A stretch of DNA of 41,839 bases from Pseudomonadota bacterium (GTDB lineage: Bacteria; Pseudomonadota; Alphaproteobacteria; Rhizobiales; Beijerinckiaceae), in the NCBI GenBank assembly GCA_023423995.1, contig JAFAEL010000133.1:1-41839 (forward strand). The letters are read 5' to 3'. The stretch's first letter is position 1; every line of letters begins with the position of its first letter. Positions 6,252 to 22,557 of the stretch are shown piece by piece. The position numbers and the translations under genes were made by a program. The notes under the pieces are model-generated. The model was not told the origin of the DNA, searched no databases, and saw nothing but the letters and a program-made list of their open reading frames with translations.

Positions 6252-6262
6252 GGGAGAGCGAT

Positions 6263-8455: not shown

Positions 8456-8739
8456 TGCGGCCGTTCTGGCTGCTCTGCGCCATCGCTGCGATGTCCGTCG
8501 TCGCGAAGGCGCAGAGTGCTCCGCCCGGGGCTTCGTCCTGCAGCGGGTGTCATGCGCCGCAGCCTGGGCAGGGCGGGGCCGTGCCGCCGATCGCCGGCAG
8601 GCCCGCCCCCGAGGTCACGGAGGCCATGGCCGCCTTCCGGGCCGGCGAGCGGCCCGGGACCGTCATGGCCCGGATCGCGCGCGGCTTCTCGCCGGAGGAG
8701 ACGCTCGCGATTGCCGAATGGCTGGAGCGGCAGCGGTGA
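8455..8739 (+). CDS. fccA: Small class I cytochrome c, FccA/SoxE-like
   Basis: A 94-residue periplasmic cytochrome c with a cleavable Sec signal (about 1-20) and one haem site, CSGCH, at 29-33. Met71 in RPGTVMARIARGF is the likely distal ligand. The sequence PPIAGRPAPEVTEAM...FRAGERPGTVMARIARGFSPEE resembles the cytochrome subunit of flavocytochrome c sulfide dehydrogenase. It follows the Mo-hydroxylase with a 1-nt overlap (TGATG) and overlaps fccB by 4 nt (GTGA). It could therefore take electrons from FccB, from the Mo-hydroxylase, or from both; IorB-type enzymes often have a cytochrome c partner. Pairing with FccB is my preferred reading. Confidence 0.8.
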   Translation: MRPFWLLCAIAAMSVVAKAQSAPPGASSCSGCHAPQPGQGGAVPPIAGRPAPEVTEAMAAFRAGERPGTVMARIARGFSPEETLAIAEWLERQR

Positions 8740-10028
8740 GAGATTTTCGCGCTTCCCGGGGTAACTCTCACCCGCCCCGCCGCACCCTTCTCGCGGGCTT
8801 GGCTTGCTCGACGCTCGCGGCAGCGATCCCCCGCCCCGCGATCGCCCAGGCGCGACCGAAGGTCGTCGTGATCGGGGGCGGCTTCGGCGGCGCAACTGCG
8901 GCGCGCGAGCTCAAGCGCGCCGGTGCGGACGTGACCCTGGTCGAGGCCAATCCGGTCTATGCGGCCTGCCCGTTCTCCAACGAGGTGATCGCCGGCCTTC
9001 GCCCGATGACGGCGCAGCATTTCGGGTACGACGGCGTGCGGACGGACGGGATCGACGTCGTTCATACAAATGCGACCGGCGTGGATCCAGCGGCGCGGCG
9101 CGTGATGCTCGGGGACGGCGCCCGGCTGACCTATGACCGGCTCGTCCTCGCGCCCGGCATCGATCTGCGCTTCGATGCGCTGCCGGGCTACGGCGAGGAG
9201 GCCGCCGAGGCGATGCCGCACGCCTGGAAGGCGGGCCCGCAGACGCTCCTTCTCCAGCGTCAGCTCGACGCCATGGAGGATGGCGGGACGGTGGTGATGT
9301 CCGTGCCGGCGAACCCCTATCGCTGCCCGCCCGGGCCCTATGAGCGGGCGAGCCTGATCGCGCATTACCTCAAGACCCGGAAACCTCGCTCGAAGCTCAT
9401 CGTGCTCGACGCGAAAGACACCTTCTCGAAGCAGCGCCTGTTCGAGCAGGGCTGGAAGGCTCTCTATCCGGATCATCTCGAATGGGTGCCGCTCGCCGCG
9501 GGAGGGCAGGTGACGGGCGTCGAGCCGTCCACCCGAACCTTCGTGACGGATTTCGGCCGACAGCGGGCTTCGGTCGCCAACGTGATCCCGCCCCAGCGGG
9601 CGGGTTCGATCGCCCAGATCGCGGGCGTGGCGGATCGCTCGGGCTGGTGCCCTGTCGATCCGGTGACCTTCGAGTCGCGGCTCCGGCCGAATATCCATGT
9701 CGTCGGGGATGCCATCATCGCGGGTGGCATGCCGAAATCCGCTTTCTCAGCCAACGCCCAGGCGAAGGTTTGCGCGGCTGCGGTGACGGAACTCCTCGCC
9801 GGCCGCGAGCCCACCGCGCCGAAGCTGATCAACACCTGCTACAGCCTGGTGGCGCCGGATTACGGCATATCGATCGCGGGCGTGTACCGGCCGCAGGGCG
9901 GCGTGCTGGCCGATGTGGAAGGTGCGGGCGGCGTCAGCCCGCTCGATGCCCCGCCGGAGACCCGGAAACTCGAGGCGGCCTATGCGGCAGACTGGTTCCG
10001 GACCATCACGTCCGAAGTGTTCGGATGA
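8736..10028 (+). CDS. fccB: Flavocytochrome c sulfide dehydrogenase flavoprotein (FccB/SoxF)
   Basis: Periplasmic FAD enzyme oxidising sulfide to sulfur or polysulfide and passing electrons to a c-type cytochrome. The 430-residue protein has a Tat-like leader (PPRRTLLAGLACSTLAAA at 13-30), a dinucleotide-binding motif VIGGGFGGATAA at 45-56, and YAACPFSNEVI, where Cys78 aligns with the cysteine that covalently binds FAD in characterised enzymes. The redox cysteines are visible in NPYRCPPGPYERASL and INTCYSLVAPDYG. The GTG start (8736) overlaps the fccA stop and has GGAG 8 nt upstream. The stop overlaps soxX by 4 nt. Confidence 0.93.
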   Translation: MRDFRASRGNSHPPRRTLLAGLACSTLAAAIPRPAIAQARPKVVVIGGGFGGATAARELKRAGADVTLVEANPVYAACPFSNEVIAGLRPMTAQHFGYDGVRTDGIDVVHTNATGVDPAARRVMLGDGARLTYDRLVLAPGIDLRFDALPGYGEEAAEAMPHAWKAGPQTLLLQRQLDAMEDGGTVVMSVPANPYRCPPGPYERASLIAHYLKTRKPRSKLIVLDAKDTFSKQRLFEQGWKALYPDHLEWVPLAAGGQVTGVEPSTRTFVTDFGRQRASVANVIPPQRAGSIAQIAGVADRSGWCPVDPVTFESRLRPNIHVVGDAIIAGGMPKSAFSANAQAKVCAAAVTELLAGREPTAPKLINTCYSLVAPDYGISIAGVYRPQGGVLADVEGAGGVSPLDAPPETRKLEAAYAADWFRTITSEVFG

Positions 10029-10468
10029 CGATGTGGCATGGCTTCGGAGCGATGGTGCTGGCGCTCTTCGTGGGATCCGGCTTCTCGGTCGCGCAGGAGG
10101 TGATCGGGGACGCGATGCCGAATTCGCTGACCGGCGCCCCGGGAAATGCAACGCGGGGGCGCGCCATCGTGGCCGACCGCACGCGTGGCCTCTGCCTCCT
10201 GTGCCATTCAGCCCCGATCCCGGAGGAGCGCTTCCAGGGCGATCTCGCGCCGCCCCTCGCCGGCGCCGGCGCGCGCTGGTCGGAGGGCCAGTTGCGGCTG
10301 CGCGTGGCAGACGCCCACCGGCTCAATCCGGACACGATCATGCCGTCCTATCTGCGCCGGGACGGCTTCAACCGTGTCGCGCCCGCCTGGCGCGGAAAGT
10401 CTGTCCTGGAGCCGCAGGACATTGAGAATGTCGTGGCATATCTCGTTACCCTTGGAGAGCAGCCCTGA
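10025..10468 (+). CDS. soxX: Sulfur-oxidation c-type cytochrome SoxX
   Basis: Monohaem partner of SoxA in the SoxAX complex, which couples thiosulfate or related sulfur species to the SoxY cysteine. The 147-residue protein has a Sec signal (about 1-23), the haem motif CLLCH at 57-61 and a probable Met106 ligand in DTIMPSYLR. The context SLTGAPGNATRGRAIV before the haem and LEPQDIENVVAYLVTL at the end is typical of SoxX. The ATG at 10025 overlaps the fccB stop; an alternative ATG two codons in is also possible. Confidence 0.93.
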   Translation: MTMWHGFGAMVLALFVGSGFSVAQEVIGDAMPNSLTGAPGNATRGRAIVADRTRGLCLLCHSAPIPEERFQGDLAPPLAGAGARWSEGQLRLRVADAHRLNPDTIMPSYLRRDGFNRVAPAWRGKSVLEPQDIENVVAYLVTLGEQP

Positions 10469-10478
10469 GGAGCGCCCA

Positions 10479-10931
10479 ATGCCGCTAGGCCCGACCCGGC
10501 GCGAAGTCCTGCTCGCCGGCGGTGCTGCGTCACTCGTCCTCGCTGTGCCGGCCTTCGCCACGCCCGAGGAGATGGCCGGCGCCGTCCGGAATTTCACCGG
10601 CGGGGCGGCGGTGAAGGCGGGCCGGGTGAAGCTCGATCTGCCGCCGCTGGTCGAGAACGGCAATGCCGCGCCCCTTACGGTCGTCGTCGAGAGCCCGATG
10701 AGCGAAGCGGACCATGTTCGCCGGATCGCGGTGTTCAACGAGAAGAACCCTCAGCCGAACGTCATCACGGCCCATCTGGGCCCGCGTTCCGGCCGTGCTA
10801 CCCTCGCAACCCGCATCCGGCTCGCCAATTCGCAGCGCATCACGGCCGTTGCGGAGATGAACGACGGGTCGTTCTGGTCCGGCACCGCGGACGTGATCGT
10901 CACGCTCGCCGCCTGCATCGAGGGCTCGTGA
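10479..10931 (+). CDS. soxY: Sulfur carrier protein SoxY with atypical C-terminus
   Basis: Periplasmic carrier (150 residues) that binds sulfur intermediates on a C-terminal cysteine. A Tat-like leader with twin Arg (TRREVLLAGGAASLVLAVPAFA, residues 6-27) and SoxY-like strands (VKLDLPPLVENGNAAPLTV, VITAHLGPRSGRATLATRIR) are visible. The swinging arm normally ends in a GGCG-type motif; here it reads AACIEGS, keeping the cysteine (Cys146) without flanking glycines. GAGGAG lies upstream of the ATG, 10 nt after soxX. soxZ starts 1 nt after the stop, as expected for the SoxYZ heterodimer. Confidence 0.92.
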   Translation: MPLGPTRREVLLAGGAASLVLAVPAFATPEEMAGAVRNFTGGAAVKAGRVKLDLPPLVENGNAAPLTVVVESPMSEADHVRRIAVFNEKNPQPNVITAHLGPRSGRATLATRIRLANSQRITAVAEMNDGSFWSGTADVIVTLAACIEGS

Positions 10932-10932
10932 C

Positions 10933-11253
10933 ATGGCGCGCGCGCTCATCAATGTCCCAAAGACCGCCCGACGCGGCGAGGTGATCGAGATCCGGACCCT
11001 GATCTCCCACCCGATGGAGACCGGCTACCGGCCCGGCCCGAACGGCACGATCCTGCCGCGGGACATCATCACGCGCTTCGCCTGCGCCTATAACGGCGTC
11101 GAGGTCTTCAGCGCCGAGCTTCATCCCGCGATGTCGGCCAACCCGTATCTGGTCTTCACGACCGTTGCGACGGAGAGCGGCACCATCACGCTGACCTGGA
11201 CGGGCGATAACGGCTTCAGCCAGACCGAAACGGCCTCGATCGAGGTGGCGTGA
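10933..11253 (+). CDS. soxZ: Sulfur carrier subunit SoxZ
   Basis: Partner of SoxY in the SoxYZ carrier complex, 106 residues, all beta immunoglobulin-like fold by family. Typical segments are ARRGEVIEIRTLISHPMETGYR near the N-terminus, PRDIITRFACAYNGVEVFSAELHPAMSANPYL in the centre and TITLTWTGDNG near the end. No signal peptide is present, consistent with co-export on the Tat leader of SoxY. The stop overlaps the soxA GTG by 4 nt. Confidence 0.95.
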   Translation: MARALINVPKTARRGEVIEIRTLISHPMETGYRPGPNGTILPRDIITRFACAYNGVEVFSAELHPAMSANPYLVFTTVATESGTITLTWTGDNGFSQTETASIEVA

Positions 11254-12020
11254 GGCGTCTTGCTCTCACGCTGCTCGCCTGTCTCGTCGCCTCATCCTTG
11301 GGGGCGGAGATCAGGCCGGAGGATCGCCGCTCGGACTTCGAGCAGATGAGCCCGGAAACCCGGGCCATGCAGACCGACGACACGGCCAATCCGGGCATGC
11401 TCGCGGTCCTCGACGGCGAGGCGCTCTGGAGTGTGCCGGCCGGATCGTCCGGGAAATCCTGCGCCGATTGCCACGGCGACGCCAAGAGTTCGATGAAGGG
11501 CGTCGCCGCGCGTTATCCGGCCTGGAATGACGACCGGAAGGCGCCGCTCGACCTCGCCGGCCAGATCGACCTTTGCCGAAGCGAGCGCCAGGGTGCGCAA
11601 GCCTGGCAGCCTGAAAGCCCGGAACGGCTCGCCGTCACCGCCTATGTAGCGCACCAGTCGCGCGGGATGCCGATCACGCCCCCGGGCGGGTCTGACATGG
11701 CAGGGGTCCGCGAGCGCGGACGCAAGCTGTACTCGGCCCGCATGGGCCAACTCGACCTCTCGTGCGCCGCCTGCCACGACGACAATTGGGGACGCCGGCT
11801 CGCGGGCGCGCCGATCCCGCAGGCGCATCCGGTCGGCTATCCGATCTACCGGCTGGAATGGCAGTCGGTAGGCTCACTGCAACGTCGCTTCCGCAACTGC
11901 ATGAGCGGCGTCCGGGCGGAGCCCTATCCGTTCGATGCGCCCGAATACATCGAGCTCGAGGCCTTCCTCATGCAGCGCGCGGCCGGCCTGGCGATCGAAG
12001 TTCCCGCAGTCCGGCCGTGA
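11250..12020 (+). CDS. soxA: Dihaem cytochrome SoxA
   Basis: Catalytic subunit of SoxAX, 256 residues with a Sec signal (1-19). Two haem motifs are present, CADCH (71-75) and CAACH (172-176), so this is the dihaem form. The active-site cysteine is Cys217 in FRNCMSGVRAEPY, the residue that becomes a cysteine persulfide ligand in studied SoxA. Cys109 could form a structural disulfide as in dihaem relatives. The GTG start overlaps soxZ by 4 nt. It is the last gene of the operon; soxB, which normally completes the core Sox system, does not follow. Confidence 0.94.
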   Translation: MRRLALTLLACLVASSLGAEIRPEDRRSDFEQMSPETRAMQTDDTANPGMLAVLDGEALWSVPAGSSGKSCADCHGDAKSSMKGVAARYPAWNDDRKAPLDLAGQIDLCRSERQGAQAWQPESPERLAVTAYVAHQSRGMPITPPGGSDMAGVRERGRKLYSARMGQLDLSCAACHDDNWGRRLAGAPIPQAHPVGYPIYRLEWQSVGSLQRRFRNCMSGVRAEPYPFDAPEYIELEAFLMQRAAGLAIEVPAVRP

Positions 12021-12108: not shown

Positions 12109-12165
12109 CGTTTCATGTGACGCCGTGAAACGTTTCGGAGCGTGCTTCAGGTCAGGATTGCTGAC
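12109..12165 (+). promoter_or_regulatory. Cluster of palindromes upstream of the sigma-54 promoter
   Basis: Three dyads lie 35-90 nt before the -24 box: CGTTTCA (12109-12115) with TGAAACG (12126-12132), the overlapping perfect palindrome GAAACGTTTC (12127-12136), and GTCAG-N5-CTGAC (12151-12165). They are placed where activator sites for a sigma-54 promoter or a repressor would sit. None matches an NtrC site as I know it. The rest of the 12021-12393 gap shows only the hairpins and promoter listed here. Confidence 0.4.
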
Positions 12166-12198
12166 ATATCTATCCTCTCCACAGAAGGCGCGTTCCGG

Positions 12199-12214
12199 TG
12201 GCACGCGGATTGCG
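12199..12214 (+). promoter_or_regulatory. Sigma-54 (RpoN) promoter, -24/-12 type
   Basis: TGGCACG-N4-TTGCG, with GG at 12200-12201 and GC at 12212-12213 separated by exactly 10 nt, as the RpoN consensus requires (TGGCACG-N4-TTGCW). Only the last base differs. The predicted start is near 12225, giving a leader of about 170 nt before the ATG at 12394. The genes it would transcribe encode an importer and a thiocyanate hydrolase/nitrile hydratase-type enzyme, both fitting nitrogen acquisition. Confidence 0.72.
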
Positions 12215-12260
12215 CAACCCTCAGGACATGGACGGAGCAGGACCGTCTCCTGGCGATAGG

Positions 12261-12283
12261 TCCGGCGCCCCAGAAGCGCCGGA
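12261..12283 (+). promoter_or_regulatory. Hairpin in the leader of the transporter/hydrolase transcript
   Basis: Perfect 8-bp arms TCCGGCGC (12261-12268) and GCGCCGGA (12276-12283) close a 7-nt loop, about 35 nt after the predicted sigma-54 start and 110 nt before the ATG. No U-run follows. It may stabilise the mRNA or serve as a binding site. Confidence 0.35.
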
Positions 12284-12393
12284 GCCATAGGGACCGGTTC
12301 GGGCGGATTGGAACAGGCTCTCCGATCCAGCCGGCGACTTGGCCGTCCAGGGCGTCAAGCTGCCACCAAGGCAGGCATAAAGAGGGGTCGAAG

Positions 12394-13479
12394 ATGACGA
12401 AACGGGACGACGTAAACGCGCCGGCCACGGGCGACACCCGCCGTGGCGCCCTGACGAAGCTGCTGGCTGTATCCTCCGTCGCGCTTGCCGCGCCGTGGGT
12501 CACCACGAAGGCGCGCGCTGCCGGGCAGATCAACGTCATTCTCAACAACGGCCTGCTCGCGAAGCTCTGGATCGACGAGCTCAATCCGCTCTTCGAGAAG
12601 GAGACGGGCGCCAAGGTCATCGTCCAGCAATCCGCCACGGCCGCGATGCTGGGAATGCTCAAGACGCAGAAGGACAATCCGCCCGACCTGATGCAGTTTT
12701 CCGATGCGGGCGTCCTGCTCGCCCGGGCAGAGGGCCTCCTGAAGCAGCACGACCGGAGCAAGATCCCGAACTTCGCCAACCTCCGGCCGGAGTTCAATTT
12801 CGCCGACGACTTCTCCGCCGGCTGCATCGACGCGATGAACACGCTCCACGTGAACACGCAGCGAATCAAGGACCGGCCCGATAGCTGGGCTGCCATGTGG
12901 GAGCCCGCCTACAAGGGGAAGATCGCGATCCCGCCGATCTCGTGGAACAACGGCGTCCGCATGATCACGACGGCCGCCCAGGTCGCGACCGGCAAGCCCT
13001 TCAAGGACGCGCAGTACGACCTCGATGCGGGCCTCGCCCATCTCGCGAAGCTCAAGCAGAACGGTGCGGTCGTCTACACGGGTGCGCCGCAGGCCATCCA
13101 GATGCTGCAGAGCGGCCAGGTGCCGGTCGTGCCGTTCTATGGCTGCTTCATCAATCCGGTGATCGCCTCCGGCGCCAACATCGCCCCGGTCGTCGATCTG
13201 AAGGAGGGCATGCACGGCGAGATCGTGGGGCTGAACATGCCGCTCAACGCTCGCAACGTGGAGCTGGCCCAGAAATACGTCGACATGTCGCTGTCAAAGG
13301 AATTCCAGACGAAGATCGACAAGGTTCTCGGCGCGCGCTGCGGCCACAAGGACGTCGAGCCGTCTGCGGAAACCTTGAAGCTCATCGGATCGCTCGACAA
13401 GACGTTCTACGCCGACTGGGCCTTCCTGGCCAAGGAGCGGCCCAAGATCGCCGAGAAGTGGAACGACATCTTCGGCTGA
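12394..13479 (+). CDS. ABC transporter substrate-binding protein, PotD/family 1 type, Tat-exported
   Basis: Periplasmic solute receptor (361 residues) of the spermidine/putrescine-type family. The N-terminus has a twin-arginine leader (DTRRGALTKLLAVSSVALAA, 14-33, cleavage near ARA-AGQ). The mature protein starts with the strand INVILNNGLLAKLWIDEL and has the lobe pattern of family 1 binding proteins (GAKVIVQQSATAAMLGML, PDLMQFSDAGVLL, WAAMWEPAYKGKIAIP). The ATG has AGAGGGG upstream. It is the first gene behind the sigma-54 promoter and is followed by two permeases, an ATPase and the hydrolase genes. Ligand not identifiable from sequence; thiocyanate, a nitrile or a related small solute is suggested by context only. 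Confidence 0.85.
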   Translation: MTKRDDVNAPATGDTRRGALTKLLAVSSVALAAPWVTTKARAAGQINVILNNGLLAKLWIDELNPLFEKETGAKVIVQQSATAAMLGMLKTQKDNPPDLMQFSDAGVLLARAEGLLKQHDRSKIPNFANLRPEFNFADDFSAGCIDAMNTLHVNTQRIKDRPDSWAAMWEPAYKGKIAIPPISWNNGVRMITTAAQVATGKPFKDAQYDLDAGLAHLAKLKQNGAVVYTGAPQAIQMLQSGQVPVVPFYGCFINPVIASGANIAPVVDLKEGMHGEIVGLNMPLNARNVELAQKYVDMSLSKEFQTKIDKVLGARCGHKDVEPSAETLKLIGSLDKTFYADWAFLAKERPKIAEKWNDIFG

Positions 13480-13488
13480 CATCCGACG

Positions 13489-14385
13489 ATGGCAAGCATC
13501 GCGCAAACGATGCCGGGTCAGGCGCCAGGCGGGTTCGTCTGGCCCGCCTGGACGCTCAAGCTCGGCCGCAACGGGCTGCTGATCGTGCCCGCAGTCGCCT
13601 TCATGGCCGCGTTCTACTTCGCGCCCCTGGCGAACCTCTTCGCCGGCAGCGTTCTTGATCAGGCCGGCTCGCTGACACTCGGCCATTACGCGTCGGCTCT
13701 CTCGAGCCGGCGTGTCCTCACCGCGCTCGAGCGCACGATGCGGCTATCGGTGGCAACCACCGGGATCACCTTCCTGATCGCCTATCCGATCGCGCTGTTC
13801 CTCATCGGCTGCGGCCGCAGGTTGCGAACCGCGATCCTCGTGGTGACCTTTGCATCCCTGGCGGCGAGCCTCATCGTCCGGAACTATGGCTGGCTCATCG
13901 TCCTGGCGGATGCGGGGCCCGTGAACCAGTTGATGCTGGCACTCGGGATCTTCGAGGCGCCCGTCCGGATGGCGTATAGCGAGGGCGCGGTCCTCGTGGG
14001 TCTCGTGCACTACGCGCTGCCCTTCATGATCCTGCCGATCTACGGTTCCCTGGTTCGCCTCAGCCCGTCGACCTGGGAGGCCGCGCAGTCTCTGGGCGCC
14101 TCGCCGGTGACGGCGCTGCGCACCGTCGTCCTGCCGCTGTCGATGCCGGGCATCTATGGCGGTGTCAGCCTTACATTCGCGATCGCAACGAGCGCCTTCG
14201 TTACGCCCCTGATGCTCGGCGCGCCCTCGACGGCCTTCGTGTCCCAGGTGGCGGCCGACGAGATGCTCGTCCAGCTGAACTTCGCGCGCGGCGCCGCGAT
14301 CGTGGTGGTGCTGACCGTGTGCACCTTCGCGGCCCTTGCCGCCTATACCTTCTCGGTCCGCCGGATAGGGGTCGCCCGTGTTTGA
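13489..14385 (+). CDS. ABC transporter permease, PotB-like
   Basis: Inner-membrane permease, 298 residues, of the spermidine/putrescine-type (binding-protein-dependent) class. About six membrane segments can be seen, starting at LLIVPAVAFMAAFYFAPLANL (about 28-48). The cytoplasmic EAA loop that contacts the ATPase reads WEAAQSLGASPVTALRTVVL (about 195-214) followed by PLSMPGIYGG. It begins 9 nt after the binding-protein gene and overlaps the second permease by 8 nt. Confidence 0.88.
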   Translation: MASIAQTMPGQAPGGFVWPAWTLKLGRNGLLIVPAVAFMAAFYFAPLANLFAGSVLDQAGSLTLGHYASALSSRRVLTALERTMRLSVATTGITFLIAYPIALFLIGCGRRLRTAILVVTFASLAASLIVRNYGWLIVLADAGPVNQLMLALGIFEAPVRMAYSEGAVLVGLVHYALPFMILPIYGSLVRLSPSTWEAAQSLGASPVTALRTVVLPLSMPGIYGGVSLTFAIATSAFVTPLMLGAPSTAFVSQVAADEMLVQLNFARGAAIVVVLTVCTFAALAAYTFSVRRIGVARV

Positions 14386-15178
14386 GTCCCGCTCCTACAC
14401 GGTCGTTCTCTCGGGCTTGGCGGCGCTCGGGCTCGCCTTCCTGGTGTTCCCGGTCGTCGTGACGATGGTGGGGTCGTTCGAGAAGTCGAGCTTCATCGCC
14501 TTCCCGCCGACCGGATTGTCCCTCCACTGGTACGGCGAGATCGGGTCGATCGCGCGGATCGGGGAGGCCACCCTGACCAGCTTCAAGGTGGCGCTCATCT
14601 CCGGAACGCTCGCGACGCTCCTCGCGACCGGAGCTGCGCTCGCGATCGTTCGGGGCGGGGTCCCGTTCGGCGCCGCGATCGCTGCGCTGCTGGCCTCCCC
14701 GGCGGCGCTGCCGATGGTGGCGATCGGCATGGCGCTTATCCAGTTCTTCATCATGTCGGGCATGGCCTTTTCGTTGACCAGCCTGATCATCGGCCACGTG
14801 GTGCTCGTCCTCGCCTATCCGCTCCGGACGATCGTCTCGGCGCTGGTTCTCTCGGACAGGACGCAGGAGCAGGCAGCCGCCTCGCTTGGTGCAACCCCGA
14901 TCGTGGTCTTCTTCACGGTCACCCTGGCCCAGATCGCGCCGGGGCTGGTCTCGGGCTTCCTGTTCGCCTTCCTGATCTCGTTCGACAACTATCCGATCAG
15001 CCTCTTCCTCGTCCGCGGCGAGTACACGACGATGCCGATCGAGCTGTTCAACTATATCAACCAGAACCTGGACCCGACCCCGGCCGCGTTCTCCTCGGTC
15101 TACATCGTCGTCGTGACGCTGATCATCGCGCTGGCCGAGAAGCGCTTCCGCATCATCTCACTGGCTTTGCCCCGCTAG
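14378..15178 (+). CDS. ABC transporter permease, PotC-like
   Basis: Second inner-membrane permease, 266 residues, with a GTG start inside the preceding gene. Membrane segments start at VVLSGLAALGLAFLVFPVVV (about 9-28). The EAA loop is EQAAASLGATPIVVFFTVTL (about 166-185), followed by AQIAPGLVSGFLFAF. The segment SFDNYPISLFLVRGEYTTMPIELFNYI resembles PotC-type permeases. It completes the heterodimeric channel of this importer; the ATPase gene starts 7 nt downstream. Confidence 0.88.
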   Translation: MFESRSYTVVLSGLAALGLAFLVFPVVVTMVGSFEKSSFIAFPPTGLSLHWYGEIGSIARIGEATLTSFKVALISGTLATLLATGAALAIVRGGVPFGAAIAALLASPAALPMVAIGMALIQFFIMSGMAFSLTSLIIGHVVLVLAYPLRTIVSALVLSDRTQEQAAASLGATPIVVFFTVTLAQIAPGLVSGFLFAFLISFDNYPISLFLVRGEYTTMPIELFNYINQNLDPTPAAFSSVYIVVVTLIIALAEKRFRIISLALPR

Positions 15179-15185
15179 GATCGCC

Positions 15186-16286
15186 ATGGCTCGCCTCGAA
15201 ATTGAGCATCTCGCCGTCTCCTACGGGCCGGTGCGCGTGATCCCGGACCTGTCCCTGGATGTCGCGGATGGGGAATGCGTCGCGCTCCTCGGCCCCTCCG
15301 GCTGCGGCAAGACGACGACGCTCCGCTCGGTCGCCGGGTTCGTTCGGCCGACCTCCGGCTCGATCAGGATCGACGGACGGAACATCTCCGAACTGCCCCC
15401 GCACAAGCGGAATATCGGGCTGGTGTTCCAGGAATACGCCCTGTTCCCGCACATGACGGTGGCGGACAACATCGCCTATGGTCTCCGGCGGCGCGGCATC
15501 GCCAAGAGCGAGATCGCAGGGCGGGTCGCGGAGGCTCTCCGGATGGTGCGGCTGGAGCGCTTCGCCGAGCGCTATCCGCTCGCCCTGTCCGGTGGCCAGC
15601 GCCAGCGTGTGGCGCTCGCGCGGGCCCTCGTGATCGAGCCCGACATCCTGCTCCTCGACGAGCCGCTCGGCGCTCTCGACCGCAAGCTGCGGGACGAGAT
15701 GCAGTTCGAGCTCAAGCGCCTCCAGGCGAATCTCGGGATCACGTCCATCATCGTGACGCACGACCAGGAGGAGGCGCTCTCGCTCGCCTCCCGGATCGCG
15801 CTCATGTTCGATGGCGACATCGCGGAGATCGGGCCCCCGGGAAGCCTCTACGAGAAGCCGCGGAGTGCGCGGGCGATGGACTTCCTCGGCGCGAGCTCGG
15901 TCATCCGGGCGAAGGTGGAGCGGAGCGGTGGCGATACCGGCTATCGGGTCGATGGCGGGATCGTGCTGTCCGGCCCTGGAATCGACGCCCCTGCGGGCTC
16001 CGACGTCCTGCTCGCGCTCCGTCCGGAAAAGATCGCTCTGTCCACGGGCGAGCAGCCGGAGCAGAACGCCGTTCGCGGCCGCATCAACCAGATCGTCTTC
16101 AAGGGGCCGGTGGCGGATGTCTATGTCGACAATCCGGGCTTCTCGGTGAGGGCCCAGATCACGATCACGGAGCCCGGCATCGAGCAGCGCTTTGCACCGG
16201 GCTCGGAGGTCTGGGCCCGGTTCCCGCCGGGCAGCATCCTCGTCTATCCCGCGAAGCCGAGCCCGGCTGAAGGAGTGAAGCGGTGA
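15186..16286 (+). CDS. ABC transporter ATP-binding protein, PotA-like with TOBE domain
   Basis: ATPase (366 residues) energising the importer. Walker A GPSGCGKTT lies near residues 36-44, the signature LSGGQRQR near 137-144, Walker B ILLLDEPLGALD near 156-167 and the switch His in VTHDQEEA near 191-198. The C-terminal part (about 240-366) is a TOBE domain, with DVLLALRPEKIAL as its usual entry. The GGA-preceded ATG fits. Its stop overlaps the GTG of the following hydrolase subunit, so transport and hydrolysis genes are translationally coupled. Confidence 0.93.
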   Translation: MARLEIEHLAVSYGPVRVIPDLSLDVADGECVALLGPSGCGKTTTLRSVAGFVRPTSGSIRIDGRNISELPPHKRNIGLVFQEYALFPHMTVADNIAYGLRRRGIAKSEIAGRVAEALRMVRLERFAERYPLALSGGQRQRVALARALVIEPDILLLDEPLGALDRKLRDEMQFELKRLQANLGITSIIVTHDQEEALSLASRIALMFDGDIAEIGPPGSLYEKPRSARAMDFLGASSVIRAKVERSGGDTGYRVDGGIVLSGPGIDAPAGSDVLLALRPEKIALSTGEQPEQNAVRGRINQIVFKGPVADVYVDNPGFSVRAQITITEPGIEQRFAPGSEVWARFPPGSILVYPAKPSPAEGVKR

Positions 16287-16618
16287 GCGGAATCCCGGAG
16301 AGAGCCGTCAACGACCTGGGTGGGTTGGATGGCGGGCCTGTCGATCGCCATGAGCATCCCCTGACGCTGTTCGAGAAGCGCGTCGATGCCCTCGTCATGC
16401 TGATGACGAACCCGTCCATCGGCGCGTTCCGGGTCGACGCCCTTCGTCGTGGCGTCGAGGCGAACTCGCCGGAGACATACGCCAGCCGCGGCTACTACGA
16501 GAAGTGGCTCTATGCGGTGCGCGACCTGCTGGTGGAGCAGGAGGTCCTCGCGCCGGCCGAGATCGAAGCGCGCATCAGCGCTCTGCGCGCGGCCGAACAG
16601 AGGGGCGTTGCGGCGTGA
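16283..16618 (+). CDS. scnB: Thiocyanate hydrolase beta-type subunit (N-terminal half of nitrile hydratase beta)
   Basis: A 111-residue protein matching only the N-terminal half of nitrile hydratase beta subunits: VNDLGGLDGGPVD near 9-21, LFEKRVDALVMLM near 31-43 and RGYYEKWLYAVRDLLVEQEVL near 70-90. Thiocyanate hydrolase (SCNase) is the known enzyme in which the beta subunit is divided into two polypeptides with this gene order (scnB-scnA-scnC). Toyocamycin nitrile hydratase is also three-subunit, so a nitrile substrate is not excluded. The GTG at 16283 overlaps the ATPase stop by 4 nt. Confidence 0.8.
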   Translation: MSGIPERAVNDLGGLDGGPVDRHEHPLTLFEKRVDALVMLMTNPSIGAFRVDALRRGVEANSPETYASRGYYEKWLYAVRDLLVEQEVLAPAEIEARISALRAAEQRGVAA

Positions 16619-16920
16619 CCACCTCCACACTGCTTCCCGGCACGCGCGTGGTGGTCCGGCGCGGCCCGCCGGAGCGGCACTGCCGCACCCCGTCGTATCT
16701 GCGCGGCAGGGTAGGGACGGTTCTGGCGGAAGTCGGGACGTTCCACGATCCCTCGCTGCTCGCCTTCCATAAGCCCGGCCTCCCTTGCCGCCGGCTCTAC
16801 CGGGTCAGCTTCCGCCAGGCCGATCTCTGGCCCAGCTACCAGGGCCCCAAGGACGTACTGCTTGCCGATCTCTACGAGCACTGGCTCACCCCGGTCTCGG
16901 CTGAGACTCGCGCGGCGTAA
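16615..16920 (+). CDS. scnA: Thiocyanate hydrolase alpha-type subunit (C-terminal half of nitrile hydratase beta)
   Basis: A 101-residue SH3-like protein corresponding to the C-terminal half of nitrile hydratase beta: GTRVVVRRGPPERHCRTPSY near 9-28, LRGRVGTVLAEVGTFHDP near 29-46, RRLYRVSFRQADLW near 59-72 and a closing DLYEHWLTP. It starts at a GTG overlapping the previous stop (GTGA) and forms the split beta pair with it. The split is by separate genes, not a frameshift: both halves have own starts, and the overlap geometry is the same as elsewhere in the operon. Preceding and following genes complete an scnBAC-like set. Confidence 0.8.
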   Translation: MTTSTLLPGTRVVVRRGPPERHCRTPSYLRGRVGTVLAEVGTFHDPSLLAFHKPGLPCRRLYRVSFRQADLWPSYQGPKDVLLADLYEHWLTPVSAETRAA

Positions 16921-16932
16921 GGAGCTTCGACC

Positions 16933-17634
16933 GTGCACGACGACCACGACGATCATCATCACGGGCATGACCACGATCATGACCACGACCACGATCACCC
17001 CCACGCTCCGGCCGCCGACGATCCTGCGCCGCCGACCGAAGCCCGGCTTCTCGAACAGGCCCTTCGGGAACTGCTGATCGAAAAGGGCGTCATCAGCGCC
17101 CAGATGGTCCAGCGTCAGATCGACACCATGGACAGCCGCAATCCGGCGCTCGGCGCGAAGATCGTCGCAAGGGCCTGGACCGACGAGGCCTTCAAGCGGG
17201 AGCTGATCGCCAGTCCGCTCAAGACCCTCGAGAGGGAGACCGGCATCGGGATGATCGTCGCCGGCATGCCGGACCTGCGGATCGTCGAGAACGAGCCCGG
17301 GATCCACAACGTCGTCGTCTGCACGCTCTGCTCCTGCTACCCGCGCATGCTGCTCGGCATCCCGCCGGCCTGGTACAAGGCGCCGGACTACCGCGCGCGC
17401 GTGGTCCGCGAACCTCGCGCGGTGCTCGCCGAGTTCGGGCTGGAACTGGACGCCGAGACGGAGATCCGCGTTCACGACAGCACGGCGGACCTTCGCTACC
17501 TGGTGATCCCGGAGCGCCCCGCGGGCACGGAAGGTTGGGACCTGGAGTCTCTCGCCGCCCTCGTCACGCGGGATTGCATGATCGGCGTCACGCGTCCGGA
17601 ACTCCCGGGTGCCGCCTCGGGGCAGAGCGCGTAG
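16933..17634 (+). CDS. scnC: Thiocyanate hydrolase gamma-type subunit (Co-type nitrile hydratase alpha family) with His-rich tail
   Basis: Metal-binding catalytic subunit, 233 residues. The claw motif VCTLCSCYPR places Cys130, Cys133, Ser134 and Cys135 around the metal; Thr rather than Ser after the first Cys marks the cobalt type. In the known enzymes two of these cysteines are oxidised to sulfenic and sulfinic acids. Family stretches include VIARAWTDEAFK-like KIVARAWTDEAFKREL, PPAWYKAPDYRARVVREPRAVLAEFG and the final DCMIGV. The first 25 residues are His/Asp repeats (13 His), a probable metal-binding tail. GTG start with AAGGAG 8 nt upstream. No separate activator/metallochaperone gene of the P47K type is nearby. 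Confidence 0.85.
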   Translation: MHDDHDDHHHGHDHDHDHDHDHPHAPAADDPAPPTEARLLEQALRELLIEKGVISAQMVQRQIDTMDSRNPALGAKIVARAWTDEAFKRELIASPLKTLERETGIGMIVAGMPDLRIVENEPGIHNVVVCTLCSCYPRMLLGIPPAWYKAPDYRARVVREPRAVLAEFGLELDAETEIRVHDSTADLRYLVIPERPAGTEGWDLESLAALVTRDCMIGVTRPELPGAASGQSA

Positions 17635-17764: not shown

Positions 17765-17780
17765 AACGTATCGAGCGGTG

Positions 17781-18527
17781 ATGCAGACCCCCGAAGGCGG
17801 CGAGGCCGCGATTGATCCCCTCGAACTCTACGCGTCCGGGATCGACACCTCAGACTACGTGGCACGTGTCGCGCCGCTGATCCGACAGGTTCTGCCGAGC
17901 AGGGGGCACCTTCTCGACATCGGCGCAGGTGGAGGCCAGCTCGGCGCTTCCCTGCGCATGTCAGGCGCGGAATGGACGGCTGTTGAACCATCCCCGACGA
18001 TGCTGGCCCGCCTCGGTCGTCTTCCGACGCCACCCCAAGTCATTCCCGTCGAATGGACCGAAGCACGGCTCCCCGCGCGCGGCTTCGACACCGTGCTGGC
18101 GGCGAACATGCCTGCGCCGCTGACCTCGGCATGCGAATTCCTGACCCGGTGCCGCGCATGGACGCGCCGCTCGATCGTCTGGGTCGTGCCGGCCCAGAAC
18201 GGGCCCCGCGGGCTTTGCCTCGCGGGCTGCCTCCCGCGTGAATGGCATGGCGAGGACGAAACTCCCGGCGTGGACATCGTGCTCGGGCAACTCCCAGCGG
18301 CTGACCACCCGGAAGTGGTTCTGAAAAGCTCCTGGTGCTTCTCGCTGCATGTCCGCAGCGTTCCCGCCATCGCCACCTATCTTGCCGGCCGGCTCGGCTG
18401 GGACGGGGGAGACCCACGTCGCCCCGCCCTCGTCGCGCACCTCTCCGCCGTGGCCGAGGCGGCAGATAACGGCTTCCGTCTGACTGTCCCGCGCGAATCC
18501 GCCATCCTGGTCTGGGGGGCGAGATGA
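17781..18527 (+). CDS. Class I SAM-dependent methyltransferase heading a TonB/ABC uptake operon
   Basis: A 248-residue methyltransferase. Motif I is HLLDIGAGGGQLGASLR near residues 43-59, followed by the acidic strand WTAVEPSPTMLARLG near 64-78 and FDTVLAANM near 96-104. No membrane segment or signal is seen, so it acts in the cytoplasm. I use the ATG at 17781; a GTG directly before it would add one residue. Its stop overlaps the TonB receptor ATG by 4 nt, so it is part of the uptake operon. The substrate is unknown; modification of an imported metallophore or a metal-responsive housekeeping role are both possible. Confidence 0.8.
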   Translation: MQTPEGGEAAIDPLELYASGIDTSDYVARVAPLIRQVLPSRGHLLDIGAGGGQLGASLRMSGAEWTAVEPSPTMLARLGRLPTPPQVIPVEWTEARLPARGFDTVLAANMPAPLTSACEFLTRCRAWTRRSIVWVVPAQNGPRGLCLAGCLPREWHGEDETPGVDIVLGQLPAADHPEVVLKSSWCFSLHVRSVPAIATYLAGRLGWDGGDPRRPALVAHLSAVAEAADNGFRLTVPRESAILVWGAR

Positions 18528-20689
18528 GACTCGCCTCACCCGCCGTTCTCGCCCTGGCCGGCTTCGCCGCCACGGGTACGGCTCTCGGGAAGCCGGGCCT
18601 CCCGGTCCCGACCAGCCTGGACGAGATCGTGGTGACCGCGACCGGCATTCCGACCCGGCAGAGCGAGGTCGCCGCGACCACGCAGGTCATCGACCGCGAG
18701 AAGATCGAGCATTCCAGCGCCAAGTCGCTGACCGACCTCCTGGCCGAGAACGCTGCTGGGTTCCTCTCGGAATGGGCCCCGGGCCAAACTTCCATCAACA
18801 TCCGGGGCGGCGCGACGGACGGCCAGGGGCGAGATTTCAAGGGCCAGGTGCTCGTCCTCATCAACGGGCGCCGCGCCGGCACGGCGAACCTCTCCAAGCT
18901 CTCCGTCGCCGATGTCGAGCGCATCGAGATCGTGCGCGGACCTGCCTCGGTGATCTATGGCAGCCAGAACATCGGCGGCGTGATCAACATCATCCTGAAG
19001 AACGGCAGGACGGCACCGGGCAGCCTGATCGAGGGCACGACGGGGCTATGGGAACTCGCACAGGGCCGCGCGCAAACCGGCGGCACGGTCGAGGGGTTTG
19101 ATTATTACCTCGGCGTGTCGGGCGGCCGGCGCGGCGACTACGACGGCGGCGGCGGCCGGCGCCAGATCAACACGTCGTGGAAGCGGAACGGCCTGACGGG
19201 CGCCTTCGGCTTCCAGGTTCATCCGGACCACCGGTTCGACTTCACCTTTCGGACGGACGGGATCTACGATTCCGGTTTCCGGGGATCGAGCGCGAACTAT
19301 CTGAGCCGGGACAACCGCTTCAACGCCTCGTTCGACGCTTCCTATTCCGGCGTGGCGCTGGATGGCGGCGCGAACCTTTTCGCGCAGTTCTACGCGGTGC
19401 GGGACGTCGACCAGTTCAAGTGGGCCTCGCCCATCGTGCGGAGCGGCAGCCTGCCCGCGCCGGGAACCTCCTCCGACTACAACAAGCGTGGGCTCGACAT
19501 CGCGGGAACGCGCCTGCAACCGCGCTTCACCCTTTGGGAAGGCAATGAACTGCTGATCGGCCACGACTGGGAGGAGAGCGTCCTGCGCTCGCATCGCTAC
19601 CGGATCGGCGTGCCGGGCAACGTGCTGGCGCAGGTCCCACCCTACGATAACAACCAGACCGACCGCAGCCAGGCGATCTACTTCGAAAACATCCAGAAGC
19701 TCTTCGAGAATCGGGTGACCTTGCGCGGCGGCCTGCGCCAGACCTGGGGCCGCACCTATTTCCAGCAGACGCCATACCTTACGGCGCAGCGGCCGAGCTC
19801 AAATCCTTACGACGCGCTGACCTACTCGGCCGGGATCGCCTGGACCGCCACCGACTGGCTGGCGCTGCGGGTCGGCGCCTCGTCCGGCTTCCGTGCGCCG
19901 ACGGCGACCGAACTCGCTGCGGATTTCACCGCTCTCGGGGGCGGGCGGACGTTCGGAAACGCCAATCTCAAGCCGGAGACCAGCGATCAAATCGAGGTCG
20001 GCGCGACGTTCGCCGGGGCCGGCTGGCGCCTCGACGCTGCCCTGTTCCAGAACGTGATCCAGGACCGGATCACGACGCGGTTGCGCCCGGGCGTCGCGAA
20101 TACGTCCGACTACGTGAACAACCCCGGCGACGTGCTGATCCGGGGTATCGAGCTGCAATACGACCAGGACATGCTGGCGCTGATCGGTCGGCGATCCGAC
20201 GCTTGGCGATGGCAGCTCTACGCCAACGGCAGCTACAATTTCGACATGAAGGACAAGGGCTCGCTGACCGTCGCGACGGCGAACACCCATAACGTCGAGC
20301 GCGTGTACCGGTACCAGGCGGCGCTCGGGACACGATTCGGTTCGGTCGGCACCGCGCATGACTGGACCATCCAGGTCCAGAGCATCATCCGCGGCCCGGT
20401 CTACTACAACACCGAAGAGAACCTGCTCGTGCCTGAGGTGGAGCCGTACCGCGAGTACATTTGGAAGAAGAGCCCGTTCGCGATCTGGAACGTTCGGGGC
20501 GAGGTTCAGCTGGATGAGGGCGTCCAGCTCTACCTGGCGGTGAACAACGTCTTCGACGTCAACAACCATCCGCTCTTCATCGCAAACGACAAGGGCGCGG
20601 TGGTCGCCGATCTGCGCTTCTACAACGGGGGAATCGGCACCTCGATGCCTGGCCGCGACGTCCAGGTCGGCGTGCAGGCGCGCTTCTGA
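18524..20689 (+). CDS. TonB-dependent outer-membrane receptor
   Basis: Outer-membrane active transporter, 721 residues. After a signal peptide (about 1-22) the TonB box DEIVVTATG lies near 33-41. The plug domain follows, with SLTDLLAENAAGFLSEW, INIRGGATDG, VLVLINGRRAG and the boundary motif VERIEIVRGPASVIYGSQNIGGVINII. The rest is a beta barrel with RVGASSGFRAPTATELAADF, NANLKPETSDQIEVG and a C-terminal aromatic residue (QVGVQARF). It resembles CirA/BtuB-type receptors for metal chelates. It is coupled to the methyltransferase upstream and to a BtuF/FecB-like binding protein 3 nt downstream. Confidence 0.93.
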   Translation: MRLASPAVLALAGFAATGTALGKPGLPVPTSLDEIVVTATGIPTRQSEVAATTQVIDREKIEHSSAKSLTDLLAENAAGFLSEWAPGQTSINIRGGATDGQGRDFKGQVLVLINGRRAGTANLSKLSVADVERIEIVRGPASVIYGSQNIGGVINIILKNGRTAPGSLIEGTTGLWELAQGRAQTGGTVEGFDYYLGVSGGRRGDYDGGGGRRQINTSWKRNGLTGAFGFQVHPDHRFDFTFRTDGIYDSGFRGSSANYLSRDNRFNASFDASYSGVALDGGANLFAQFYAVRDVDQFKWASPIVRSGSLPAPGTSSDYNKRGLDIAGTRLQPRFTLWEGNELLIGHDWEESVLRSHRYRIGVPGNVLAQVPPYDNNQTDRSQAIYFENIQKLFENRVTLRGGLRQTWGRTYFQQTPYLTAQRPSSNPYDALTYSAGIAWTATDWLALRVGASSGFRAPTATELAADFTALGGGRTFGNANLKPETSDQIEVGATFAGAGWRLDAALFQNVIQDRITTRLRPGVANTSDYVNNPGDVLIRGIELQYDQDMLALIGRRSDAWRWQLYANGSYNFDMKDKGSLTVATANTHNVERVYRYQAALGTRFGSVGTAHDWTIQVQSIIRGPVYYNTEENLLVPEVEPYREYIWKKSPFAIWNVRGEVQLDEGVQLYLAVNNVFDVNNHPLFIANDKGAVVADLRFYNGGIGTSMPGRDVQVGVQARF

Positions 20690-20692
20690 CCG

Positions 20693-21580
20693 GTGCGCGT
20701 CCCGCTCCTCGCGCTCGCGGCCCTGCTCGGCGGAGCCGCCGTTCCGCCATCGGTCGCAGCGGGGCCCGTCTCCGTGTCGGACGCGGTGGGCCGGACAGTC
20801 GAGATCGCGGCGCCACCCATGCGGATCGTGCCCATCTTCGCCTCGAACGTCGAGTTGGTGGCGGCGCTCGGCCTCGCGGACCGGATCGTCGGGATCGAGG
20901 ATTACACGCGCTTCCCACCCGAGGTGCTGTCGCGGCCGCGTGTCGGCGGCAGGCTGGGCTTCTCGGTGGACGCGGTCGCGGCGCAGCGGCCCGATCTCGT
21001 GATCGTCACGCCCTCTCGCCAGGCGATGCACCAGTTGCTCGATCCCATGGAACGGCTCGGCATCCCCGTGATCGTCCTCCTCGCCAGATCCATGGAGGAG
21101 GTTCTCGGCAATCTGCGCCTGCTTGGCCGGGCTCTCGGCACGCCCGAGAAGGGGGAGGCCGTGGCCGCTTTGCTTGCGCGCCGGCTCGAAGCCGTCGCCG
21201 CCGGCGGGGCAGGGCGTCCCTGTCCGAGCGCCGTGATGGTCACCGGGCAGCTCGGCAACGGGCTGCTCCTCGCCGCGCGCCCCGACACCTATACGGGCGA
21301 TGCGATGGTCCGGTCGGGCGCCTGCTTCGCGCTGGCCGGGCGAGGCGCCGTCCCGCAGGTCTCGCCTGAAGCCGTGCTCGCCTCCGATCCCGATGTGCTG
21401 CTCTTCGCGGGCTCGCGCCAGGGCCTTGCCGAGCTCATCGCCCGGCCGGGCTTCCGCGACATGCGCGCCGTCAAGGCTGGTCGGGCCTTCACGGTCGAGC
21501 GCGCGCAGTTCCTGATCCCCGGACCGCGAACGGTCGACGGGATCGAGGCTCTGGCCAGAACCCTGCGGGAAATGCCGTGA
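20693..21580 (+). CDS. Periplasmic metal-chelate binding protein, BtuF/FecB-like
   Basis: Class III solute-binding protein, 295 residues, with a signal peptide (about 1-23). The family pattern is clear: VSDAVGRTVEIAAPPMRIVPIF near 27-48, LVAALGLADRIVGIEDYTRFPPEV near 54-77, VDAVAAQRPDLVIVT near 93-107 and PVIVLLARSMEEVLGNLRLLGRALGTPEKG after that. It hands the ligand taken up by the TonB receptor to the permease. The GTG start (20693) sits 3 nt after the receptor gene; the stop overlaps the permease start. Confidence 0.9.
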   Translation: MRVPLLALAALLGGAAVPPSVAAGPVSVSDAVGRTVEIAAPPMRIVPIFASNVELVAALGLADRIVGIEDYTRFPPEVLSRPRVGGRLGFSVDAVAAQRPDLVIVTPSRQAMHQLLDPMERLGIPVIVLLARSMEEVLGNLRLLGRALGTPEKGEAVAALLARRLEAVAAGGAGRPCPSAVMVTGQLGNGLLLAARPDTYTGDAMVRSGACFALAGRGAVPQVSPEAVLASDPDVLLFAGSRQGLAELIARPGFRDMRAVKAGRAFTVERAQFLIPGPRTVDGIEALARTLREMP

Positions 21581-22557
21581 AACCGGCGTTCGGTCTCGCC
21601 GCCGTGATCGTCGCGGCCGCCGTCTTGTCCGCCTCCGCGGGACATGACTGGGCGACGCCGGCCGACCTCCTGAGGGCGCTCGCAGGGGACGAGTCCCTGC
21701 GCAGCCGGCTTCTCCTGGAATGGCGGCTGCCGCGCGTGCTGGCGGCCGGGCTCGTCGGCGCGCTGCTCGGTCTCGGGGGGGCGATCTTCCAGGGCGTGTT
21801 CCGCAACCCGCTCGCCGAGCCTTACCTCCTCGGCTCCGCCGGCGGTGCGGCGATCGGGGCGACGGTCGCGCTCCTCGTGCCGCTCGGCGTGCCATCGGGC
21901 TACGCGCTCGCGCTTCTCTCGTTCGGGGGCGCATGGGGTGCGACGGCGCTGGTGCTCGCGGTGGGGCGGCTGGCGGGCACGATCGACGCCGCGGGACTGC
22001 TGCTGGCGGGTATCGCAGTCGCCGCCGTGCTCGGCGCTGTCCGCTCCTTCCTGATGCTTGCACTCTCGGACGAGACGGTCAGCCTGCAGATCGTGCTGAG
22101 CTGGACGCTCGGTGGCATCCAGACTCCGGGCTGGACCGGGCTCCTGGTGCTGACCGGGCTGGTGAGCGCGTGCATGCTGCTGTCCATGCGGCTTGCACGC
22201 GGGCTCGATCTTCTCGGGCTCGGGGACGAGGTGGCGCATGGCTTCGGGCTCGATCCTGGCCGTTTCGTCGGGATCGCCGTCCTGGTCGGGGCCGCCGTGG
22301 TGGCCGTCGCTGTATCCTATGGCGGGCTCGTTGCCTTCGTGGGGCTGATCGCGCCTCACATCGGGCGGTGGTGGGTCGGGCCCCGCCATCGCGCATTGCT
22401 GCCGGTGAGCGCAGGGATCGGGGCAGCGCTTGTGCTCGTCTGCGATGGTGTGGCGCGCGCCGCTTTGCCCCCGGCGGAGGTGCCGCTCGGCCTCATCACG
22501 GCAGCGCTCGGGGGACCATTCTTCCTCCTGGTGCTGGCCCGGAGACTCCGGGCGTGA
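21577..22557 (+). CDS. FecCD/BtuC-family ABC permease
   Basis: Inner-membrane permease, 326 residues and about ten helices. Landmarks are the cleaved-looking first helix, RLPRVLAAGLVGALLGLGGAIFQ, the signature FRNPLAEPYLLGSAGGAAIGA and the coupling region GDEVAHGFGLDPGRF. The C-terminal SYGGLVAFVGLIAPHIGRWWVGPRHRALLPVSA is diagnostic of the FecCD family. The GTG at 21577 overlaps the binding-protein stop (GTGA), and its own stop overlaps the ATPase GTG by 4 nt. Confidence 0.93.
   Translation: MKPAFGLAAVIVAAAVLSASAGHDWATPADLLRALAGDESLRSRLLLEWRLPRVLAAGLVGALLGLGGAIFQGVFRNPLAEPYLLGSAGGAAIGATVALLVPLGVPSGYALALLSFGGAWGATALVLAVGRLAGTIDAAGLLLAGIAVAAVLGAVRSFLMLALSDETVSLQIVLSWTLGGIQTPGWTGLLVLTGLVSACMLLSMRLARGLDLLGLGDEVAHGFGLDPGRFVGIAVLVGAAVVAVAVSYGGLVAFVGLIAPHIGRWWVGPRHRALLPVSAGIGAALVLVCDGVARAALPPAEVPLGLITAALGGPFFLLVLARRLRA

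Follow-up and report, generated by a model that had tools for sequence, protein, structure and literature searches.

A three-subunit, cobalt-type nitrile hydratase-like enzyme in a conserved cassette with a putative dedicated ABC importer

Which compound is acted upon by the nitrile hydratase (NHase)-like enzyme that is encoded by three consecutive genes at positions 16283-17634 of contig JAFAEL010000133.1, a stretch of 41,839 nucleotides from a bacterium of the family Beijerinckiaceae (the whole stretch is called the window in what follows)? A preliminary description of this DNA had taken the genes for those of a thiocyanate hydrolase (SCNase) linked to the sulfur-oxidation genes nearby. Our analysis favors a different reading, which we hold with moderate confidence: a three-component, cobalt-type NHase-like enzyme of a lineage distinct from both classical NHases and SCNases, located in a cassette with a dedicated ATP-binding cassette (ABC) importer and hydrating an imported nitrile. 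The enzyme is probably an organic-nitrile hydratase rather than a thiocyanate hydrolase. Three-subunit NHases as such are already known; what is new here is a separate three-subunit lineage that has no adjacent activator gene and is tied to an importer. No account of the ABC-NHase cassette or of an activator-less split NHase lineage was found among the titles and abstracts listed by searches of open-licence papers. The genes of the cassette and the metal motif are located in the window as follows.

12391..13479, + strand: ABC solute-binding protein (SBP; PotD/SBP_bac_8 family), 362 aa from the chosen ATG; SBP_bac_8 5.6e-20; open reading frame (ORF) 12142-13479, start putative
13489..14385, + strand: ABC permease 1 (PotB-like); BPD_transp_1; PotB model 125 bits, below cut-off
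14378..15178, + strand: ABC permease 2 (PotC-like); BPD_transp_1; PotC model 101.8 bits, below cut-off
15186..16286, + strand: ABC ATPase (PotA/PhnT-like); ABC_tran 1.5e-37, TOBE_2; potA model 342 bits, cut-off 355.6
16283..16618, + strand: betaN, the separate N-terminal half of the NHase beta subunit, 111 aa; NHase_beta_N PF21006 66 bits, 3.9e-18
16615..16920, + strand: betaC, the separate C-terminal half of the NHase beta subunit, 101 aa, GTG start; NHase_beta_C PF02211 67.8 bits, 1.2e-18
16933..17634, + strand: metal (alpha/gamma) subunit, 233 aa, His-rich N-terminus; NHase_alpha PF02979 255 bits, 3.9e-76
17320..17337, + strand: metal-ligand motif CTLCSC, residues 130-135 of the metal subunit, invariant in a 25-row alignment

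The Pfam matches of betaN, betaC, and the metal subunit far exceed chance. As the preliminary description had stated, the beta subunit is split into separate ORFs, the genes follow the order N-terminal half, C-terminal half, metal subunit, and CTLCSC is the cobalt form of the NHase-family metal motif. Four-base GTGA overlaps join the ATPase gene to betaN (16283-16286) and betaN to betaC (16615-16618), which suggests translational coupling of these three genes. The four transporter genes (12391-16286), omitted from that description, separate the sulfur genes from the NHase genes and are the conserved partners of the latter.

Specifically, the order SBP, permease, permease, ATPase, betaN, betaC, alpha was kept in ten loci, namely the window, L003, L004, L019, L112/L113, L149/L150, L176, L179, L188, and L191 (L numbers denote comparison loci and G numbers comparison genomes; L113 and L112 are two contig ends of G025, L149/L150 belong to G533, and L188 to G1210). 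The carriers are labelled Alpha- and Betaproteobacteria. Identity between the window and the nine other cassettes was 62-70% for the SBP, 54-58% for permease 1, and 57-62% for permease 2, and the nearest cassette was that of G916 (SBP 70%, betaN 68%, and alpha 67%). The cassette is rare: searches with the SBP retrieved it from 2 of 61, 1 of 397, and 1 of 399 genomes, and it was present in 4 of 18 stretches taken around good metal-subunit matches. A fuller form is found at seven of the ten loci, where a gene for a GntR-type regulator precedes the cassette and one for an isochorismatase-family amidohydrolase follows it; six of these seven (not L003) also have a gene resembling phosphoenolpyruvate (PEP) mutase and methylisocitrate lyase. 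This combination of an amidohydrolase in seven and a lyase-like gene in six of ten cassettes suggests a route from nitrile to amide to acid.

The phylogeny of the metal subunit, which the preliminary description had named as a check, placed the window in neither of the two known groups. In a 62-row tree, the window's clade (23 rows, support 97/96) was apart from both the SCNases (7 rows, 100/99) and the classical NHases (9 rows, 100/99). A quick tree of 156 rows concurred in separating the three, and a 65-row tree with a slightly altered row set (L177, L178, L183, and L185 added, L045 left out) supported the clade at 99/90, the four added loci not being securely inside it. The 62-row tree consisted of 57 of the 156 rows and five of seven later loci (L177 and L178 left out); duplicate loci were skipped, 24 of 119 other listed proteins were used, and neither the 156-row tree nor the residue counts include L031, L032, L053, and L066, which had formed long branches or grouped with them. 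Forcing the window into the classical NHases was 38.7 log-likelihood units worse (p of the approximately unbiased test, p-AU, 0.020), and forcing it into the SCNases 30.9 units worse (p-AU 0.046, marginal), the groups for these tests having been defined from the first tree. Thus, the SCNase placement that the preliminary description expected was not recovered, and the placement inside ordinary NHases that it regarded as contradicting its proposal was not recovered either.

Against protein family models, the metal subunit passed the cut-off of neither group. It narrowly missed that of the NHase alpha model TIGR01323 (245.1 bits versus 249.85) and failed that of the SCNase gamma model TIGR03887 (200.9 bits versus 291.45), which matches in 7 of 399 genomes from a single order exceeded, at 338-400 bits. 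Scores against solved structures were near-equal (207.2 bits for the Pseudomonas putida Co-NHase and 203.0 for SCNase gamma). Of the alignment columns, 41 distinguish the 10 SCNases from the 19 NHases; at these, the window was SCNase-like at 8, NHase-like at 9, and neither at 24. At the strictest 11 columns, it was NHase-like at five (L44, N120, P144, K149, and T184), neither at five, and SCNase-like at one (R138). For the beta halves the scores are less even: betaN matched the beta subunit of the P. putida Co-NHase at 37.0 bits, its best PDB match, versus 17.9 for SCNase beta, and betaC scored 51.7 bits against the same NHase subunit versus 22.3 against SCNase alpha. By this measure, both halves are nearer to NHases than to SCNase.

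The preliminary description had relied on the gene split and gene order as marks of SCNase. Among the best 80 of 584 relatives retrieved by a genome scan, however, the beta halves were separate in 61 of 62 scorable loci and fused in one. These 80 loci were chosen as the most similar to the window and are hence biased toward its kin, and 18 of them could not be scored as split or fused by script (one of these, L020, is split by eye). A split beta subunit is therefore not special to SCNase, and since it is common to a large lineage, its combination with a cobalt motif is insufficient to call one. Genome surveys relying on these two characters would misassign a large lineage as SCNase.

This lineage also differs in its complement of activator genes. 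A passage of PMC3511329 places the chaperone gene just downstream in Co-NHases and SCNase. Among the loci analyzed here, a fused beta subunit was accompanied by a second betaN-like (activator) ORF in 8 of 11 classical NHase loci (the other three, short stretches, gave one match), and scnB by a P15K gene in four of five SCNase loci. Searches with betaN and P15K profiles revealed neither P15K nor a second betaN-like ORF in the 41.8 kb of the window, a single betaN-like gene in 13 of 13 loci tested from its clade, and one such gene in 12 of 13 tested from the remaining split NHases outside the two known groups (hereafter, together with the clade, the third lineage), L054 having none. Weak extra matches of these profiles overlap the metal-subunit gene. 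The lack of an activator gene at the loci searched suggests that either betaN itself serves this function or a chaperone is encoded elsewhere, and the lineage is thus a setting in which to probe the part of the free N-terminal half in cobalt delivery. As a separate observation, the betaN profile gives weak matches (E as low as 2e-9) to the metal-subunit ORFs of L040, L064, L116, and others, a hint that the two subunits share an internal kinship.

The distribution of the amidohydrolase was analyzed at the level of whole genomes. A protein of at least 55% identity was present in eight of nine cassette genomes, in two of six genomes with a close metal subunit in which no cassette was seen, and in 2 of 44 controls, a set that had been drawn beforehand, with no one-to-one matching. 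The match in G916 is an independent one, located about 200 kb from the cassette. Among the six genomes with no cassette seen, of which G009 and G005 alone were placed in the window's clade, the matches of at least 55% were those of G005 and of G871 (not securely placed); G009, G888, and G1017 had relatives of 49%, and G953 had none. The amidohydrolase of L019 has N-carbamoylsarcosine amidohydrolase as its nearest solved relative (172 bits), followed at 132.8 bits by 3ot4/3uao, which we take to be maleamate amidohydrolase; the lyase-like protein of the same locus is nearest to petal death protein, then to methylisocitrate lyases.

Related genes were also observed outside the cassette. At L013, which is in the clade and in which no ABC genes were seen, an amidohydrolase gene lies 3.7 kb upstream; the region 4964-9210 of this locus (labelled as a gammaproteobacterial metagenome-assembled genome) encodes, upstream of the split NHase, the amidohydrolase, an RraA-like aldolase, a BKACE enzyme, and a TctC-type binding protein. 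A 33% homologue of the amidohydrolase is encoded about 2 kb upstream of betaN at L110 (Acuticoccus), with a hydantoinase-like gene near and no ABC cassette seen. In L216 and L218, genes for the same type of amidohydrolase stand beside those for a glutaredoxin-like protein and LeuC/LeuD-type hydratases (by eye), with no NHase genes seen nearby, a gene set that would fit a route from maleamate to malate.

In the mechanism that we propose, the importer would bring in a small organic nitrile. By analogy with other members of the family, the Co(III) site with oxidised Cys133 and Cys135, together with arginines of the beta halves, would add water to the C-N triple bond and yield an amide. The partner amidohydrolase would convert the amide to an acid and ammonia, a step extrapolated to the window from the fuller cassettes, and in some hosts an enzyme of the methylisocitrate-lyase type may then cleave the acid. 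Cobalt delivery, in other family members the task of the activator, may here fall to the free betaN as well. The substrate could suitably be a nitrile that carries a carboxyl or hydroxyl group, and the conserved importer and amidohydrolase provide a concrete route toward the natural one.

The sulfur genes upstream of the cassette are listed below.

8455-8739: small cytochrome in the usual place of FccA; Pfam match 25.3, just under the threshold of 27
8718-10028, + strand: FccB; FCSD domains
10025-10468, + strand: SoxX; above NCBIfam cut-off
10479-10931, + strand: SoxY paralogue with a C-terminal AACIE arm, not GGCGG; TIGR04487 218.6 bits, cut-off 172
10933-11253, + strand: SoxZ; above NCBIfam cut-off
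11250-12020, + strand: SoxA; above NCBIfam cut-off
8718..12020, + strand: FccB, SoxX, SoxY-AACIE, SoxZ, and SoxA as flanking context; membership in the system putative

Of the FccAB and sulfur genes that the preliminary description had placed upstream, FccB and the Sox-type genes stand; the candidate for FccA falls under the Pfam threshold, and the SoxY is an AACIE paralogue that fails the model of true, GGCGG-type SoxY (95.6 versus a cut-off of 125). Neither SoxB nor SoxCD was recognised in the window, where no search aimed at them was made. FccB adjoins two of the ten cassettes, that of the window and that of L019, where FccB and a SoxX-like gene lie directly upstream at the contig end. For the other eight, no FccB or Sox match was found in stretches reaching 1-15 kb upstream of the SBP gene. 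AACIE-type SoxY scored over its cut-off in three of nine cassette genomes, one of six other genomes with a close metal subunit, and 6 of 44 controls, and no match was near the cassette in those nine genomes. The three positive cassette genomes share one order, in which five genomes without a cassette match are positive as well. The link to sulfur is weak, given that FccB adjoins so few cassettes and that the SoxY of the window belongs to the AACIE type; two Fcc adjacencies in distant lineages are suggestive and fall short of evidence for a common pathway. A causal tie between the sulfur genes and the cassette was considered and set aside, FccB being at two cassettes only and AACIE-type SoxY showing no tie to the cassette. 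The sulfur neighborhood is not conserved, and the pathway that had been drawn from a C-N-S compound to sulfur oxidation is not supported.

Other neighbors of the cassette include, directly before the Fcc/Sox set (5800-8455), a two-gene molybdenum hydroxylase, with a small 2Fe-2S protein by eye and a large subunit (6263-8455) that is weakly like xanthine/aldehyde dehydrogenases and has a Tat-like start by eye. Downstream (17778-23306) are genes for a methyltransferase-like protein, a TonB-dependent receptor, a BtuF/TroA-like binding protein, a FecCD/BtuC-like permease, and an ATPase that was recognised by eye and through a weak match. This may be an uptake cluster for a metal chelate or cobalamin, and its supplying cobalt to the enzyme is conjectural.

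Several observations weigh against the imported-nitrile reading, and some of them are shared with the thiocyanate reading as points in its favor. The cassettes of the window, L176, and L188 have no GntR regulator, amidohydrolase, or lyase, and no partner amidohydrolase or lyase gene lies within the window; since it is one of these three in ten, the nitrile-amide-acid pathway is extrapolated to it from the fuller form. Of the eight amidohydrolase matches in cassette genomes, seven are the very copies that lie next to the cassette, G1210 has only a 41% relative, and several cassette genomes are close kin. Arg138 is SCNase-like: all 10 SCNases have R at this position, and 17 of 19 NHases have W. 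In betaN, the conserved Arg is followed by another Arg in all 13 clade rows and all 3 SCNase rows examined, and in none of 5 classical NHase rows. A grouping of the whole clade with the SCNases was not rejected (AU p 0.385), nor was one with the classical NHases (AU p 0.34), so that either may be its sister. To our knowledge, no enzyme from the clade has been assayed. The thiocyanate reading would have the ABC importer bring in thiocyanate, which would be hydrolysed to carbonyl sulfide (COS) and ammonia, the COS giving sulfide for oxidation by the products of the Fcc/Sox-type genes. It draws on the unrejected grouping, the shared arginines, the lack of an amidohydrolase within the window, the subunit split and order of scnB-scnA-scnC, and the presence of FccB with Sox-type or SoxX-like genes beside the cassettes of the window and L019. 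Arg138 and the second betaN Arg, presumably placed beside the metal site, would suit an anionic substrate, which could be thiocyanate or a carboxylated nitrile, and position 138 is Arg or Lys in 33 of 33 clade rows and 93 of 94 other third-lineage rows. We nevertheless regard thiocyanate hydrolysis as improbable. The metal subunit remains far below the TIGR03887 scores of the seven passing matches, a place inside the SCNase clade is marginally rejected, and the N-terminal extensions and P15K of SCNase are absent; moreover, the amidohydrolase of seven cassettes would not be needed for thiocyanate, FccB adjoins just two cassettes, and in the nine cassette genomes no match to AACIE-type SoxY was near the cassette. 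SCNase, the identity given by the preliminary description, was dropped on the cut-off, the clade, the missing extensions, and the missing P15K, and is kept as a rival. Classical NHase was likewise dropped as an identity, given no fused beta subunit, no activator gene, and a separate clade.

There is a small chance that the substrate is an N-cyano compound of the cyanamide type, or something similar, hydrated to an N-carbamoyl product that an N-carbamoylsarcosine-amidohydrolase-like partner would hydrolyse. On the one hand, the partner at L019 is nearest to that very enzyme, and a hydantoinase-like gene accompanies the 33% homologue near the Acuticoccus copy. On the other hand, a natural N-cyano substrate is not evident, the methylisocitrate-lyase-like gene suits a substrate with a carbon skeleton better, and no ABC cassette was seen in the Acuticoccus arrangement. 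Equally slight is the prospect that the enzyme detoxifies a broad range of nitriles and that the transporter, encoded in the same operon, imports an unrelated compound such as a polyamine. The transporter does resemble polyamine and 2-aminoethylphosphonate systems, all below equivalog cut-offs, but the seven genes keep their order in loci with alphaproteobacterial and betaproteobacterial labels alike, and in the window the ATPase gene shares four bases with betaN.

Starting from the reading that we prefer, a hydratase supplied with an imported nitrile, a wider proposal can be offered tentatively and with low confidence. Importer, hydratase, amidohydrolase, and lyase-like enzyme may form a nitrile-assimilation operon that turns a carboxylated hydroxynitrile (e.g., oxaloacetate cyanohydrin) into ammonia and central metabolites. 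In it, betaN would itself be the cobalt chaperone, with no separate activator, and duplication from such a state could have given rise to the activators now found with classical NHases and SCNase. PMC8567248 names oxaloacetate cyanohydrin as an intermediate of cyanide assimilation in a pseudomonad, and its proteomic table concerning 3-cyanoalanine includes transport proteins of the polyamine type; this shows only that such substrates exist.

Among known systems, the SCNase of Thiobacillus thioparus (ScnABC, PDB 2dd4) resembles the window in its separate beta halves and B-A-C gene order, and in a metal subunit with CTLCSC, a His-rich start, and Arg after C-Y-P. It differs in its longer chains (157 aa for beta and 126 for alpha versus 111 for betaN and 101 for betaC), which begin about 38 and 31 residues earlier, respectively, as do those of other SCNase ORFs, in the P15K gene (four of five loci versus none in the window), and in residues D120, S144, R149, N184, and K186 (window numbering), none of which the window matches. 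A further arrangement was observed on plasmids of Roseomonas (L081) and Azospirillum (L082), in which an annotated scnC stands beside a single SH3-like protein of 283 aa (with a betaN match in L081), near a P15K-like ORF (L081), CbtAB (L081) or HupE (L082), TauE-type exporters, and insertion sequence elements.

Toyocamycin NHase (ToyJKL) of Streptomyces rimosus also has three subunits, with masses reported as 21.2, 10, and 11.4 kDa (PMC8574189); compared by this reported size only, they are approximately of the order expected here. It hydrates an organic nitrile, according to a passage of PMC12648386, so on that account three subunits do not imply thiocyanate. Unlike the window genes, ToyJKL sits in an antibiotic cluster. 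Classical Co-NHases (P. putida 3qxe and Pseudonocardia 1ire) share with the window the fold family, the cobalt motif, the conserved beta Arg and Tyr-Tyr/Trp, and L44, N120, P144, K149, and T184, but have a fused beta subunit, a second betaN-like gene in 8 of 11 loci, and Trp at position 138 in 17 of 19. The other split NHases of the third lineage (annotated as nitrile hydratase alpha and SH3-like proteins) likewise have a split beta subunit, no second betaN-like gene in the loci tested, and Arg or Lys at position 138 in 93 of 94 rows; they differ from the window in that most of the loci retrieved are without ABC genes and some follow the order C-terminal half, alpha, N-terminal half (e.g., L083 and L014).

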